DNA of 64,000 nucleotides from positions 248,001-312,000 of the forward strand of contig NZ_JAMQYE010000001.1 of NCBI RefSeq assembly GCF_023721795.1. The letters run 5' to 3'. Below, piece by piece: positions 13,983-46,531 of the stretch. The translations under genes were made by a program, and so were the position numbers. Numbering within the stretch: the stretch's first letter is position 1; every line of letters begins with the position of its first letter. The stretch comes from Zeimonas sediminis. GTDB taxonomy: Bacteria; Pseudomonadota; Gammaproteobacteria; Burkholderiales; Burkholderiaceae_E. The notes beneath the pieces are model-generated. The model was not told the origin of the DNA, ran no database searches, and saw nothing but the letters and a program-made list of their open reading frames with translations.

Positions 13983-15254
13983 ATGAAGCCCGAGACCCTC
14001 GCCGTGCACGCCGGCTATTCGCCCGACCCGACCACGAAGTCGGTCGCGGTGCCGATCTACCAGACCACCTCGTACGCGTTCGACTCGGCGCAGCACGGCG
14101 CGGACCTGTTCGACCTGAAGGTCGCGGGCAACATCTACACCCGGATCATGAACCCGACGACCGACGTGCTCGAAAAGCGCGTCGCGGCGCTCGAGGGCGG
14201 CATCGCGGGGCTCGCGCTGGCCTCGGGCCAGGCGGCGATCACCTATGCGATCCAGACGATCGCCGAGGCCGGTGACAACATCGTGTCGGCCACCCGGCTC
14301 TACGGCGGCACCTACAACCTGTTCGCCCACACGCTGCCGCAATTCGGCATCGAGACCCGCTTCGCCGACGGTGAGGACCCGGTGTCGTTCGAGGGCCTGA
14401 TCGACGCGCGCACGAAGGCGGTGTTCGTCGAGAGCATCGGCAACCCGTCGGGCAGCGTGGCCGACATCGCCGCCTTCGCGAAGATCGCCCATGCGCACGG
14501 CGTGCCGCTGATCGTCGACAACACGGTGGCCTCGCCCTTCCTGCTGCGGCCGATCGAGCACGGCGCCGACATCGTCGTGCACTCGCTGACCAAGTACATC
14601 GGCGGCCACGGCAACTCGATCGGCGGCATCATCGTGGACTCGGGCAAGTTCCCGTGGGCCGAACACAAGGCCCGCTTCCGCCGGCTCAACGAGCCCGACG
14701 CGTCGTATCACGGCGTCGTCTACACCGAGGCGCTGGGCCCGGCGGCCTACATCGGGCGGGCCCGGGTCGTGCCGCTGCGCAATACCGGCGCCGCGCTGTC
14801 GCCGTTCAATGCCTTCCTGATCCTACAGGGCCTCGAGACGCTGCCGCTGCGGATGGAACGGATCTCGGCCAACGCGCTGGCGATCGCGCGCCACCTGGCG
14901 TCGCATCCGCGGGTCGAGTGGGTCCGCTATCCGGGCCTCGAGAGCTCGGCGGATCATGCGAAGGCGAAGCGCTACCTGCCAAACGGCGCCTCCGGCATCC
15001 TGTCCATCGGCCTGAAGGGTGGCCGCGAGGCCGGCGAGCGCTTCCTCGACGCGCTGCAGCTGGTGCTCCGTCTGGTCAACATCGGCGACGTGCGCACGCT
15101 GGCCACGCATCCGGCGAGCACCACGCACCGCCAACTTTCCCCGGCCGAGCTGGCCTCGGCCGGCGTGTCGCCCGAGCTGGTGCGGCTGTCGATCGGCATC
15201 GAGCACGTCGACGACCTGATCGCCGACCTCGACCGCGCAATCGCGGCGGCGTAA
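13983..15254 (+). CDS. metY: O-acetylhomoserine aminocarboxypropyltransferase (sulfhydrylase) MetY
   Basis: 423 residues from ATG 13983, chosen because GGAG lies six bases before it; an in-frame ATG at 13971 would add four residues. Cys/Met-metabolism PLP enzyme: YTRIMNPTTDVLEKRVAALEGG, ASGQAA, and the PLP lysine Lys204 in SLTKYIGGHG. The sequence VPIYQTTSYAFD and the 430-residue size fit MetY rather than MetB/MetC. It makes homocysteine from O-acetylhomoserine and sulphide. MetZ (O-succinyl) is the main alternative. Followed by a 315-base gap holding a large inverted repeat. Confidence 0.88.
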   Translation: MKPETLAVHAGYSPDPTTKSVAVPIYQTTSYAFDSAQHGADLFDLKVAGNIYTRIMNPTTDVLEKRVAALEGGIAGLALASGQAAITYAIQTIAEAGDNIVSATRLYGGTYNLFAHTLPQFGIETRFADGEDPVSFEGLIDARTKAVFVESIGNPSGSVADIAAFAKIAHAHGVPLIVDNTVASPFLLRPIEHGADIVVHSLTKYIGGHGNSIGGIIVDSGKFPWAEHKARFRRLNEPDASYHGVVYTEALGPAAYIGRARVVPLRNTGAALSPFNAFLILQGLETLPLRMERISANALAIARHLASHPRVEWVRYPGLESSADHAKAKRYLPNGASGILSIGLKGGREAGERFLDALQLVLRLVNIGDVRTLATHPASTTHRQLSPAELASAGVSPELVRLSIGIEHVDDLIADLDRAIAAA

Positions 15255-15270
15255 CCTCGCGTCGTGCGAG

Positions 15271-15509
15271 GCATTGCGGGGCAGGCCCGGGGCCGGCGCG
15301 CTTCGGCAGCGCCGAGTCGCGCAGGGCGCGTGGCCCGCGCGCGAAGCGCGCATCGTTCCTCTGACTTGCCGCCGCCTGTCCGAGCGCAGCGAACGCAGTG
15401 AGCGAAGCGAGTTCGGCGGCAGGCCACGCGCCCGAGCAACGAGGGCAGTCCGGCCGGCAGGCCGGACCGCTGTCGTCGCGCGCCGGCCCCGGGCCTGCCC
15501 CCGCAGTGC
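15271..15509. repeat. Large nested inverted repeat (about 240 bp) after metY
   Basis: The 315-base gap 15255-15569 has no gene. Its outer arms, 15278-15300 and 15479-15501, are perfectly complementary over 23 bases and extend outward with one unpaired base and one G-T pair to 15271 and 15509. A second perfect 12-bp pair (15324-15335 with 15422-15433, GGGCGCGTGGCC) lies inside. Local hairpins include GTCCGGCC-GGCA-GGCCGGAC around 15449-15468 and a GCGCG-CGAAG-CGCGC stem. It sits between the 3' ends of metY and the convergent MFS gene and has no T-run of a classical terminator. Confidence 0.75.
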
Positions 15510-15569
15510 CCGGTCTCAGGCGCTTCCTCGCCGTGCCCGAGTCCGGCTCCGGACCCGCAGCGTTCGGCT

Positions 15570-42734: not shown

Positions 42735-45700
42735 GGCCGGCCCGCCCGGGCGGTCATCACCAGGGCAGCCATCGCTTCAACCTGTCGGCCGCGGCGCTGC
42801 GCTTCCCGCAGCTGACGCTGTTCTTCCTGCTGGTCGTCGGCATCGCCGGCACGCTGGCCTATCTGCGCCTGGGCCAGAGCGAGGACCCGGACTTCACCTT
42901 TCGCGCGATGGTGATCCGGACGATCTGGCCGGGCGCGACCACCGAGCAGGTCGACGAGCTGATCACCGACCGGATCGAGCGCAAGCTGCAGGAGACGCCG
43001 CATTTCAAGTGGACCCGCAGCTACTCGCGGCCCGGCGAGTCGCTGATCGTGCTGGAGCTGCAGGACGTCGCGCCCGCGAAGGAGGTGCCGCAGATCTGGT
43101 ACCAGGTGCGCAAGAAGGTCGGCGACATCCGCGCGACGCTGCCGCAGGAGATCGTCGGCCCCTTTTTCAACGACGAGTTCGGCGACGTCTTCGGCACGAT
43201 CTACGCGTTCACCGGCGACGGCTTCAGCCACGAGGAGCTTCGCCAGTCGGTCGAGGGCGTCCGCCAGGAGCTGCTGCGGCTTCGCGACGTGCAGAAGATC
43301 GAGCTTTTCGGCGTTCAGGCCCAGCGGGTGTTCATCGAGATCTCGCCGCGCGCGCTGGCCACCCTCGGCATCGATCCGCAACGGATCGCCGCCGAGCTGC
43401 AGGCGCAGAACGTGGTCGCGCCGGCCGGCACGGTGCAGGGCGCGAGCCGCGCGGTGCCGATGCGGGTTACGGGGCAGTTCGACACGGTCCGCGAGATCGA
43501 GTCGCTGAGACTGGCGATCGACGGCCGGCAGATCCGGCTGGGCGACGTCGCCCGGGTGTTCCGCGGCTACGTCGATCCGCCGGTCTACACGATGCGCTTC
43601 GGCGGCAGCCAGGCGATCGGCCTGGGGGTGTCGATGGCGCCGGGCGGCGACGTGATCGAGCTCGGTCGCGCGCTCGAGTCGACGATGGCGCGCCTGAAGG
43701 CCGACCTGCCGGTCGGCATCGAGTTCTCGAAGGTTTCGGACCAGCCGAAGATCGTGCGCAACGCGGTCGGCCTGTTCATGAAGGTGCTCGCCGAGGCGGT
43801 GGCGATCGTCCTGGCGGTCAGCTTCCTGAGCCTGGGGCTGCGCGCCGGCAGCGTGGTCGCGCTGACGATCCCGCTGGTGCTGGCCGGCACCTTCGTGGCG
43901 ATGGACTGGTTCGGCATCGACCTGCACCGGGTCTCGACCGGCGCGCTGGTGATCGCGCTGGGCCTGCTGGTCGACGACGCGATGATCGCGATCGAGATGA
44001 TGTCGCGAAAGATCGACGAGGGTCTCGACCGCTTCTCGGCGGCGACCTTCGCGTACACGAGCACGGCCTTCCCGATGCTGACCGGCACGCTGGTGACCGC
44101 GGCCGGCTTCCTGCCGATCGCGACCGCGAAGTCCACGACCGGCGAGTACACGTTCAGCATCTTCGCGGTGGTCACGATCGCGCTGCTGGTCTCCTGGGTG
44201 GCGGCGGTCACCGTGACCCCGTTCCTCGGCAACTGGCTGCTCAAGGAGAAGGGCGGCCATCACGAGGTGTTCGACACGCGCTTCTATCGCCGGCTGCGCG
44301 GCACGATCGACTGGTGCATGCGCCACCGCTGGACGACGATCGCGGCGACCCTGGGCGTGTTCGCGCTGGGCGTGGTCGGCATGGGGCTGACCGAGAAGCA
44401 GTTCTTCCCGACTTCGAACCGCACCGAGATCCTGGTCGAGATGTGGCTGCCCGAGGGGGCGAGCTACCGCGCGACCGAGGAGCAGGCGAAGCGGCTCGAG
44501 GCGGTCCTCGCCGAGGACCCCGACATCGCGACCTACGTCGCCTACGTGGGCAACGGCTCGCCGCGCTACTACCTGTCGCTCGACCAGCAGCTGTTCCGGC
44601 CCAACTTCGCCCAGTTCGTCGTGCTGACCCACGACGTCGAGGGCCGCGACCGGGCGCTGGCGCGGATCCGCGAAGCGCTCGACGCGAAGTTCCCGGGCGT
44701 GCGGGCGCGCGCGTTCCGCACGCCGCTCGGGCCGCCGGTCGCCTACCCGATCCAGTTCAGGGTGCTCGGCGAAGACCCGGCGCGGCTGAAGGAGATCGCC
44801 GCCCGCGTCGCCGAGGTGGTCCGCGCCGACACGCAGACCATCGATGCGCATGCCGACTGGGGCGAGCGGTCGCCGGCGATGCGCATCGAGGTCGACCAGG
44901 ACAAGGCGCGCGCGATCGGCCTGAGCTCGGCGCAGATCGCCCGCTCGCTGGGCGCGGCGCTGTCGGGCGCGACGATCGGGCAGTTCCGCGAGGGCGACCA
45001 GCTGATCGACGTCGTGCTGCGAGCGCCTCCGGGCGAGCGCGCGTCGCTCGCCGGCCTGGCCAACCTGCAGGTGCAGACGGCCCTGGGCCGCTCGGTGCCA
45101 CTGTCGCAGGTGGCAACGATCCAGGAAACGATGGAGGAGCCGATCATCTGGCGGCGCAGCCGAATGCCGGTGGTCACCGTGCGCGCCGACATCGTCGAAG
45201 GCGTGCAGGCGCCCGACGTGGCGGCGCGGATCGATCCGCGGGTCGATCCGATCCGCGCCGAGCTGCCGCCCGGCTACCGCATCGAGGTCGGCGGGCCTGC
45301 CGAGGACAACTCGAGCGCCCAGGCGGCGATCGGCGCCGGCGTCCCGATGATGCTGGCGGTGATGATGGGCCTGCTGATGGTCCAGCTGCGCAGCTTCTCG
45401 CTGACCTTCATGGTGCTGGTGACCGCGCCGCTGGGGATCATCGGTATCGCTGCGGCGCTGCTGGTCTTCGACCGGCCCTTCGGCTTCGTCGCGATGCTCG
45501 GCGCGATCGCGCTGGGCGGCATGATCATGCGCAACACCGTGATCCTGGTCGACCAGATACGCCAGGACATCGAGGCAGAAGTGCCCCCCTGGGACGCGGT
45601 CCGCGAATCGACCGTTCGCCGCTTCCGGCCGATCGTGCTGACCGCCGCCGCCGCGGTGCTGGCGATGATCCCGCTGTCGCGCGACGTGCTGTGGGGTCCG

Positions 45701-45808
45701 ATGGCCTTCTCGATCATGGGCGGACTGGTCTTCGCCACGGTGCTCACGGTGCTGTTCGTGCCGGCGCTGTACGTGGCTTGGTATCGCATCCGGGCCGCTG
45801 CCGCCTGA
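42731..45808 (+). CDS. RND efflux permease (AcrB/MexK-like)
   Basis: 1025 residues with 12 expected membrane helices and two large periplasmic loops. Beginning: LFFLLVVGIAGTLAYLRLGQSEDPDF; the DxDD-like proton-relay region LGLLVDDAMIAIEMMSRK in helix 4; GLTEKQFFPTSNRTEI opens the second half; MLGAIALGGMIMRNTVILVDQI lies near the C-terminus. A drug/proton antiporter of the hydrophobe-amphiphile group by size. Substrate cannot be told. It works with the lipoprotein upstream and presumably a TolC-type channel encoded elsewhere. It is followed by a 580-base non-coding stretch. Confidence 0.93.
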   Translation: MRPARPGGHHQGSHRFNLSAAALRFPQLTLFFLLVVGIAGTLAYLRLGQSEDPDFTFRAMVIRTIWPGATTEQVDELITDRIERKLQETPHFKWTRSYSRPGESLIVLELQDVAPAKEVPQIWYQVRKKVGDIRATLPQEIVGPFFNDEFGDVFGTIYAFTGDGFSHEELRQSVEGVRQELLRLRDVQKIELFGVQAQRVFIEISPRALATLGIDPQRIAAELQAQNVVAPAGTVQGASRAVPMRVTGQFDTVREIESLRLAIDGRQIRLGDVARVFRGYVDPPVYTMRFGGSQAIGLGVSMAPGGDVIELGRALESTMARLKADLPVGIEFSKVSDQPKIVRNAVGLFMKVLAEAVAIVLAVSFLSLGLRAGSVVALTIPLVLAGTFVAMDWFGIDLHRVSTGALVIALGLLVDDAMIAIEMMSRKIDEGLDRFSAATFAYTSTAFPMLTGTLVTAAGFLPIATAKSTTGEYTFSIFAVVTIALLVSWVAAVTVTPFLGNWLLKEKGGHHEVFDTRFYRRLRGTIDWCMRHRWTTIAATLGVFALGVVGMGLTEKQFFPTSNRTEILVEMWLPEGASYRATEEQAKRLEAVLAEDPDIATYVAYVGNGSPRYYLSLDQQLFRPNFAQFVVLTHDVEGRDRALARIREALDAKFPGVRARAFRTPLGPPVAYPIQFRVLGEDPARLKEIAARVAEVVRADTQTIDAHADWGERSPAMRIEVDQDKARAIGLSSAQIARSLGAALSGATIGQFREGDQLIDVVLRAPPGERASLAGLANLQVQTALGRSVPLSQVATIQETMEEPIIWRRSRMPVVTVRADIVEGVQAPDVAARIDPRVDPIRAELPPGYRIEVGGPAEDNSSAQAAIGAGVPMMLAVMMGLLMVQLRSFSLTFMVLVTAPLGIIGIAAALLVFDRPFGFVAMLGAIALGGMIMRNTVILVDQIRQDIEAEVPPWDAVRESTVRRFRPIVLTAAAAVLAMIPLSRDVLWGPMAFSIMGGLVFATVLTVLFVPALYVAWYRIRAAAA

Positions 45809-45840
45809 CCCGGCCTGGGGCTCGTGATGGGGTGGCGCGC

Positions 45841-45990
45841 GAGGCGGCGGGATGCCTGCTGCCTGGTGCGACGACGCGGCGCGCTTCGCGCGCTGCCCTC
45901 GCTGCCTTCGGAAGCGGCCGCGTCCCACGCGGCCCTTCCTCGTTCGCTCGGCGCGTCCTGAGCACCAGGCAGCAGGCACCCCGCCGCCTC
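45841..45990. repeat. Long hairpin element A (150 bp) after the RND operon
   Basis: Arms 45841-45869 and 45962-45990 are complementary over 29 bases with one mismatch. The 92-base interior has its own apical stem GGCCGCGT-CCC-ACGCGGCC at 45916-45934 and a CGCGC-TTCG-CGCG hairpin. The core 45871-45959 matches the reverse complement of element B's core (46195-46286) at roughly 85-90% by eye, while the outer arms differ. The gap 45809-46389 contains no gene. Confidence 0.85.
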
Positions 45991-46076
45991 GTGGCAAGGT
46001 CTTCGCACGCGCCCGGCGGGGCAGGCTCTCGCGGAACGGGGCTCGAGGCCGAGGGCGCGTCGCGTGGTGTTTCCTG

Positions 46077-46136
46077 CCGTGAGCGAAGTCGTCCGGCTTT
46101 CAGGGAAGTCCTCCGGCCGTCAGCGAAGGGCTTTTT
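46077..46136. repeat. Three degenerate 20-base tandem units between elements A and B
   Basis: Units at 46077-46096 (CCGTGAGCGAAGTCGTCCGG), 46097-46116 (CTTTCAGGGAAGTCCTCCGG) and 46117-46136 (CCGTCAGCGAAGGGCTTTTT) share the pattern TCAGCGAAG and TCCGG. The last runs into TTTTT. Confidence 0.55.
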
Positions 46137-46162
46137 GCCTGCCCGGGCGTGGCGACCGTGCC

Positions 46163-46318
46163 CGGCGGCGAGGCGGTGCGGGTTTGCCGGCGTGTAGGAC
46201 GCGCCGACCCGACGAGGAAGGGCCGCCGGGGCGGCGGCCGCTTCCGAAGGAGGGGAGGGAAGCGCGCGTCAGCGCGCCGCGTCGTTTGCGCCGGCAAACC
46301 CGCACCGCCTCGCCGCCG
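46163..46318. repeat. Long hairpin element B (156 bp) upstream of tRNA-Leu
   Basis: Arms 46163-46192 and 46289-46318 are perfectly complementary over 30 bases. The apical stem GGCCGCCG-GGG-CGGCGGCC is at 46221-46239. The interior is a second copy, in inverted orientation, of the core of element A; relative to A the apical stem carries a compensatory change of two base pairs. Confidence 0.87.
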
Positions 46319-46370
46319 CCGCCCCCACCAACCGAAGGGCAGCCAAAAGAGCCCGTAGCGCCCTTTCGTT

Positions 46371-46376
46371 TAGAAT
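46371..46376 (+). promoter_or_regulatory. -10 element of tRNA-Leu
   Basis: TAGAAT 13 bases before the tRNA, in TTTAGAAT; a -35 is not evident at standard distance. Confidence 0.4.
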
Positions 46377-46389
46377 GTCGCGCTTCGCC

Positions 46390-46474
46390 GCGGCCGTGGC
46401 GGAATTGGTAGACGCACCAGGTTTAGGTCCTGGCGCTGCAAGGCGTGTAGGTTCGAGTCCTATCGGCCGCACCA
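46390..46474 (+). tRNA. tRNA-Leu (UAG anticodon)
   Basis: 85 bases including encoded CCA. Acceptor GCGGCCG pairs with CGGCCGC; anticodon stem CCAGG/CCTGG encloses loop TTTAGGT with anticodon TAG; a long variable arm typical of tRNA-Leu follows; T-loop GTTCGAGTC. It directly precedes tig. Confidence 0.97.
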
Positions 46475-46531
46475 GCGCAGACGGCGCCGCCGCAGCGCAG
46501 CCCACCCCCAGATGCTTTGGAATCTTCTCTG

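Follow-up and report, generated by a model that had tools for sequence, protein, structure and literature searches.

The window, that is, the whole stretch of 64,000 nucleotides analysed here, belongs to a Zeimonas genome of 3.86 Mb and 99% completeness (G000). It holds two elements, A and B, between the last part of an RND gene, which matches Pfam ACR_tran (AcrB/AcrD/AcrF), and a tRNA-Leu gene followed by a trigger factor gene (Table 1). A sequence-only reading of this DNA had placed them between an RND operon and tRNA-Leu, as the Pfam match and the tRNA bear out, and had their position right, with ends that were off by about one base.

Table 1 Features of the window discussed in the text
Feature	Position	Strand	Remarks
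Possible third, divergent member	15276-15504	-	arms 15276-15301 / 15478-15504 paired; AACTC..TCGGACA at 15377-15413
RND (ACR_tran) gene, last part	43802-45808	+	stop codon 31 bases before A, same strand
Element A 5' outer arm (P1)	45840-45869	+	30 bp; 29 paired with 45962-45991
Element A core	45870-45961	+	stem GACGC/GCGTC, hp1 45879-45893, conserved internal loops, apical stem P2 45910-45939
Element A 3' outer arm (P1')	45962-45991	+	pairs with 45840-45869
Spacer, A to B	45992-46162	no strand	
Element B 3' outer arm (P1')	46163-46192	-	pairs with 46289-46318
Element B core	46193-46288	-	86% identity with A core
Element B 5' outer arm (P1)	46289-46318	-	30/30 paired with 46163-46192
tRNA-Leu, anticodon TAG	46390-46474	+	beyond B

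Each element is about 155 nt long and represents a short type with a plain hairpin as its inner domain. The core of A is 86% identical to the complement of positions 46196-46285, in inverted orientation, in line with the 85-90% that the sequence-only reading had estimated for two inverted copies. Its further structural claims also held: the outer arms differ between the elements and are self-complementary (29 of 30 pairs in A, the one mismatch being an A-C, and 30 of 30 in B), and the apical stem has undergone a compensatory change of two base pairs (GT/AC in A, CG/CG in B). Outer-arm alignment scores are 27 for A and 30 for B, compared with a shuffle maximum of 12 (500 shuffles each), and the RNA folding energy z scores are -9.9 for A, -9.6 for the minus strand of B and -10.2 for the minus strand of A (200 dinucleotide shuffles). 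A consensus scan of the A-B region (45700-46500) returned no sigma-70-like promoter or intrinsic-terminator-like site. Only three tRNAs reached the gathering score of an Rfam 15 family across the window, with no family for A or B, and Rfam 15 applied to the element region and 15 relative loci gave only sub-threshold microRNA-type and isrD matches.

Elsewhere in the window, a divergent structure may be a third member of the family. It lies in the gap 15255-15569. The flanking genes converge, with ends at 15254 and 15570, and Pfam identifies their products as a PLP enzyme of Cys/Met metabolism and an MFS transporter. The arms of the structure are about 26 bp long, its E-values are weak, 0.2 and 0.088, with the models R2 and R1 described below, and hardly any of its sequence aligns to A or B.

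The arrangement of two inverted elements from RND gene to tRNA-Leu is shared by G007 (inferred to be Zeimonas arvi; locus L028). G015 has one element, adjoining the RND gene, and G006 has at least part of one, a contig end falling inside it. The tRNA-Leu locus was recovered in 17 of 18 genomes of the genus, and the RND gene end lies upstream of tRNA-Leu in seven congeners, with a core-like match in G000, G007 and G015 and none in G010, G011, G012 and G017, over the 131 to 1500 bases of upstream sequence compared per genome. By eye, an extra inverted repeat of about 28 bp (GACCGGTCGCGCGAGCGTGCCCGCACGG and its near-complement) flanks the single element of G015 (L118) on the outside.

A family of copies placed at gene ends

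A model built from five short elements (R1) matched only A and B in G000, among the 150 of 7695 candidates scored; taken alone, this would have suggested an isolated pair. The limit arises because the remaining copies have a different inner domain. Larger relatives in G028 and G061, genomes of another genus in the same family, were recognised by the motif AACTC-hairpin-TCARACA, a pattern with 10 and 16 matches in these two genomes, 0 in the control and none among the family's 72 further genomes. A second model, R2, was made from 42 of the 44 cores found in that other genus, namely those that were distinct and had enough flank. At E ≤0.1 it matched 45 times in G028, 39 in G061, 23 in G000, 16 in G007, 7 in G006, once in G015 and 0 times in G073; the E-values in G000 ranged from 4e-6 to 0.049, and A and B themselves had no R2 match. 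Pattern search of G000 gave 49 matches, compared with 5 in the reversed control, and 31 of the 49 had a paired hairpin, a filter that probably drops at least one genuine copy (C1:1475339, whose orthologue in G007 is matched by R2) and lets through two weak ones (C1:2174870 and C2:167532). The R2 and pattern matches overturned the isolated pair: covariance-model searches and copy counts, which the sequence-only reading had suggested as a check, found a genome-wide family with covarying relatives rather than two copies alone.

Copies in G000 fold as branched palindromes with conserved junction loops and are about 200-300 nt long, although RNAfold places the ends too far out in some of them. R2 under-counts, reporting none in G007 at the place orthologous to L326, though that locus aligns at 84% throughout. 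Contigs end in or near elements at several places (G028 C1 end, C5 start and C6 end; G006 C139 start), so draft genomes may under-count copies. In two elements of G028 (L066 and L075), the conserved loop that follows hp1 is interrupted by additional nested hairpins. At another locus (L390 in G014), arms of about 75 bp in mid-locus are nearly perfectly paired, with an RNA fold of -298 kcal/mol in 300 bases; this long-armed element may have arisen recently or may reflect misassembly.

Using our own GC-frame gene calls in the relatives and around the G000 copies, we found that copies sit shortly 3' of stop codons, mostly between convergent genes. The upstream gene lies on the strand of the element in 25 of 29 cases in a first set of 32, which includes L033 of G073 and three cases that lacked an upstream call. 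The figure for G000 is 23 of 24, from the 25 of 31 copies that had a locus, one of these lacking an upstream call. Where both flanking genes were called, the gap is convergent in 18 of 26 cases in the first set and 19 of 24 in G000. Because a convergent gap gives a same-strand upstream gene either way, most of the 25 of 29 and 23 of 24 is automatic, and the order of elements in pairs is better evidence. Co-directional gaps divide 4:2 (first set) and 4:1 (G000) between (+,+) and (-,-).

Adjacent pairs less than 700 bases apart are in +- order in 9 of 9 cases in G000 and 22 of 23 in the other genus, 31 of 32 in total, although some of these pairs are non-independent, being orthologous between G028 and G061 or on apparently duplicate G061 contigs (equal scores on C19 and C27). 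The sole exception, in the other genus, is a ++ pair. Within a head-to-head pair, each element reads away from its own gene. We regard the family, its place and this pair order as established. The neighbouring genes are ordinary and unrelated, among them genes with valyl-tRNA synthetase, fumarase-type lyase and thiolase domains, and 10 of the 23 upstream G000 proteins, when scanned, fell into 10 different kinds of Pfam family. The T fractions at positions 1-5 after P1 are 0.75, 0.35, 0.33, 0.57 and 0.33 in 40 elements of the other genus; in 40 Zeimonas elements, position 1 alone is clearly raised, and there is no T-run.

Pairing in conserved cores and private arms

Covariation was assessed on 42 cores aligned with MAFFT, with the structure specified from the sequences. 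In this set, 94.1% of 1132 cells are paired and 219 cells are changed on both sides; structures slid by 1 to 3 columns are 35-53% paired. The covariation score is 0.461, compared with 0.125 in shuffles, and none of 500 shuffles reaches the observed value on four of the five measures; the fifth, further pair types, stands at 42 and averages 38.6 when shuffled, with 58 of 500 shuffles reaching it. Elements of the window's type (A, B, two of G007 and one of G015) have 17 cells changed on both sides, reached by 0 of 500 shuffles, and their further pair types are reached by 1 of 500. G-U pairs account for 8 of the 1132 core cells, six of them one-sided changes. The P4 stems contain 278 Watson-Crick, 0 G-T and 5 A-C pairs in one genus and 291 Watson-Crick, 1 G-T, 2 A-C and 7 other pairs in the other, and UNCG tetraloops in P4, sought as a sign of RNA selection, occur in 0 of 45 and 0 of 44. 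In nine orthologous pairs, the cores, which have conserved internal loops and three-way junctions, match between species to about the same degree as the coding sequence next to them. Covariation alone is no proof of a selected RNA structure.

The outer arms pair as well and are private to each copy. After arms shorter than 20 bp were dropped (1 of 42 and 4 of 44 elements), 41 and 40 elements gave 1647 and 1616 aligned pairs, of which 95.1% and 94.6% are Watson-Crick; the mismatches include 10 and 6 G-T and 22 and 26 A-C. Complementarity of the outer arms inside one copy is 0.96. Among copies, identity of the 5' outer arm is 0.46 in G000, compared with 0.44 when shuffled (190 pairs, 20 elements), and 0.55 in G028, compared with 0.52 (253 pairs, 24 elements); short outermost G+C-rich bases recur, and some G028 outer arms resemble one another.

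Between species, the arms change faster than third codon positions nearby: across nine orthologous pairs, seven from Zeimonas and two from the other genus (L139/L140), outer arms are 0.61 identical (shuffled 0.54) and cores 0.85, and third codon positions of the neighbouring genes are 0.80 identical (1435 codons, 8 of the nine pairs). For two of the nine, arm identity does not exceed that of shuffled sequence, and arm homology is not established there. By eye, orthologous arms had seemed unrelated; an earlier comparison of nine pairs, with a mean identity of 0.65 and 0.52 when shuffled, revealed residual homology instead. That comparison had included L327+/L340+ and L333-/L343-, which were left out of the present set with arm identity at the shuffled level. 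In the 7 orthologous arms that align without gaps, 52 of 71 changed aligned pairs went from Watson-Crick to Watson-Crick and the other 19 are non-Watson-Crick in at least one species; 4 non-Watson-Crick pairs are unchanged, and 21 positions are unaligned. The covariation and the private, fast-changing arms are likewise established.

The arms are also asymmetric, with G-C exceeding C-G by 474:206 in one genus and 357:215 in the other, and T-A exceeding A-T by 69:35 and 83:51. As both strands of a perfect palindrome have identical arms, this asymmetry is independent of the strand chosen. According to the passages of PMC8794818 drawn on here, template switching yields an excess of G-C over C-G and of U-A over A-U, and the outer arms deviate in the direction given there for intrastrand template switching. 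They also resemble the template-switched stems of that work in their multi-base compensatory changes; those passages concern microRNA and rRNA stems, whereas the present case concerns long arms in many dispersed bacterial copies. Three features of a palindrome maintained by template switching are thus found together: Watson-Crick changes on both sides, few wobble intermediates and an asymmetry of the 5' base. The asymmetry and the rarity of G-T and A-C mismatches point to DNA template switching between the arms, although the excess of G-C and T-A might have arisen in some other way, for example through a G-rich outer arm that copies in the other genus partly share.

The sequence-only reading had proposed selection or gene conversion acting on a stem. 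Pairing that is kept as the sequence changes is strongly supported, but the arms are hard to account for by selection alone. Selection acting pair by pair along a 40-bp stem would be unlikely to keep it near-perfectly paired, and because the arms change faster than third codon positions and still remain Watson-Crick over 30-45 bp, arm copying fits better than selection alone. Arm copying would erase internal loops that are not under selection, so their constancy argues for a function of the core. Conservation of the cores points to a likely function at gene ends.

Maintenance, strand and role of the elements

Our best explanation, which we hold with middling confidence, is a family of gene-end palindromes whose arms are kept by template switching and which play a boundary role. 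In the copies examined, a gene has one branched palindromic element shortly past its stop codon, in a fixed order, so that convergent genes have a head-to-head pair. Arm-to-arm copying, a known mutational process, would keep the outer arms complementary as the DNA is replicated (template switching, or quasi-palindrome correction). As the substitution pattern suggests, the arms would then drift fast as a unit, leaving each copy with private, nearly perfectly paired arms. The folded single strand would most likely serve as a boundary at gene 3' ends, where the hairpin might shield mRNA 3' ends or block read-through between convergent genes. Both the maintenance of pairing by template switching and the role as a boundary are inferences.

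If the role at gene ends is true, it adds an extra layer of 3'-end or read-through control, of which literature searches, including searches with printed motif strings, found no description. The elements are a natural record of how long hairpins stay paired, with dozens of natural replicates per genome in which long stems turn over in sequence while pairing is kept. In culturable hosts such as Zeimonas arvi, selection and templated copying become directly testable as sources of compensatory change.

The elements could instead be non-autonomous mobile elements of the REP/BIME kind, with a transposase acting in trans on the folded strand and gene ends being either the target or the place where insertions survive; we consider this possible but less likely. 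Tens of dispersed copies, many in inverted pairs, would suit such an origin, as would the presence of elements at the RND/tRNA-Leu locus in three of the seven congeners and their absence from four. One site where the element orientation is opposite in G000 and G006 (L336 and L354) would suit it too. In G007 (L406), the stretch of about 1.7 kb that separates two element pairs in G000 (L323, C1:1194000-1198000) has the reverse orientation, and its breakpoints fall at the elements; the inversion and the flip indicate that elements recombine or turn over in place. Against a mobile origin, there is no target-site duplication in the 80 elements, with matches of at least 4 bases in 2 of 80, compared with 5.2% by random pairing, and of at least 6 bases in 0 of 80. 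Moreover, arm sequence is not kept between copies, and sites compared across species mostly retain their element, with a difference of subtype in at least one (L145/L162). A MITE does not fit either, as terminal inverted repeats are not conserved between copies, the arms are overall near shuffled identity and target-site duplications are missing.

Comparison with described repeats separates setting from definition. REP/BIME, as the portions of PMC3733652 used here describe them, are extragenic palindromes 20-40 bp long that often contain G-T pairs and carry a GTAG or CGTC tag at one end. Measured against the same portions of PMC3733652, our elements are alike in being dispersed, in forming many inverted dimers and in lying mostly downstream of genes, between convergent or unidirectional genes, but unlike in being about 150-300 nt long and branched, with private arms of 30-45 bp and almost no G-T. 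Within 7 nt outside P1, the REP tag GTAG/CTAC was found in 0 of 80 elements, CGTC once on the left and once on the right, and GACG three times on each side; internally, CTTCGGTAG occurs in 21 of 40 and 3 of 40 elements. The label 'REP/BIME-like' given by the sequence-only reading therefore fits the setting (dispersed, in inverted pairs, after genes) but not the definition (length, tag, G-T pairs and the unlikeness of copies). The elements are a new variant of extragenic palindromic repeats.

ERIC, YPAL and NEMIS are long intergenic hairpins too, with arms conserved between copies; here the arms are private to each copy. ERIC and NEMIS are among the repeats named in the parts of PMC3110155 drawn on here, which describe the Betaproteobacterial repeat element (BRE) as about 90 bp long, of conserved sequence and tandem (VNTR). 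Like BRE in that description, the elements are a repeat of Burkholderiales intergenic regions, the two being compared by description and not by sequence; unlike BRE, as PMC3110155 portrays it in those parts, they are not a conserved tandem repeat of about 90 bp.

Going further than our best explanation, the elements at gene ends might belong to a class not described before, able to make and remake their own inverted repeats. Private arms of 30-45 bp, changing faster than third codon positions, would flank the conserved branched core and be re-paired by arm-to-arm copying, so that complementarity and not sequence is inherited; the antisense fold would be the active form. Taken as a whole, this is rather unlikely.

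An unlikely alternative is that function resides in the strand opposite to A's orientation, acting as structured RNA or single-stranded DNA and read from the pair spacer outward into the flanking 3' ends. Mismatches in the variable stems (outer P1 and P4), counted on A's (gene-sense) strand, are 10 G-T and 35 A-C (p 2.5e-4), as if wobble were better tolerated on the other strand, but mismatch numbers are small and a looser arm alignment, since replaced by the stricter one, gave G-T/A-C counts of 23/31 and, with the opposite sign, 73/43 in Zeimonas. The complementary strand also folds better in 40 of 41 and 40 of 40 elements with RNA energies (80 of 81) and in 36 of 41 and 39 of 40 with DNA energies (75 of 81), although with homologous cores and loops this comparison amounts to about one observation, not 81. 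The spacer between A and B, moreover, is without a promoter-like site. The A-C excess and the better complementary fold do not favour a sense-strand mRNA role, and leave open that the active form may be the strand antisense to the adjacent gene.

Integron attC sites have variable stems with conserved structure, lie at gene 3' ends, fold as the bottom strand and carry paired core sites of consensus GTTRRRY/RYYYAAC. A recombination site of this kind, with its bottom strand folded at the gene 3' end, is very improbable here: the location past the stop codon, the stems that vary while their structure is conserved and the complementary-strand preference agree with it, but core sites are present at both ends in 1 of 80 elements and at one end or more in 5 of 80, and copies are dispersed in convergent pairs beside ordinary genes, not in tandem and with no cassette array seen, so that the missing core sites and non-tandem layout largely refute an attC identity.

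The inner module beyond the family

Searches for A on plasmids gave no match; with the sequence of a relative they gave only matches of 41-44 bases near one end of the query, and with the order-wide type two partial matches. The motif pattern applied to the class matched in 8 of 369 genomes, with 3 control matches and no obvious hairpin in the 8 strings, and six pattern matches on viral contigs, inspected by eye, fold without the element; these matches were rejected, although other matches on viral contigs may include phage copies.

R2 was applied across the order at E ≤0.001 with stricter filters and 10 candidates scored per genome, and matched in 12 of 399 genomes, four in the family (G000, G007, G014 and G028) and eight in three other families. 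Fifteen loci from the other families were folded, and in most of them a related AACTC-hairpin-TCARACA module adjoins a CTTTCTTTGCTTCGCC-type repeat. The inner module extends beyond the family, mostly in another setting. At L388-L404 (G273, G139, G182, G344, G372 and others), the module stands mostly beside a conserved CTTTCTTTGCTTCGCCAAAGAAAG-type hairpin repeat. Two of these loci, L395 and L396, have long paired arms that are alike between both.
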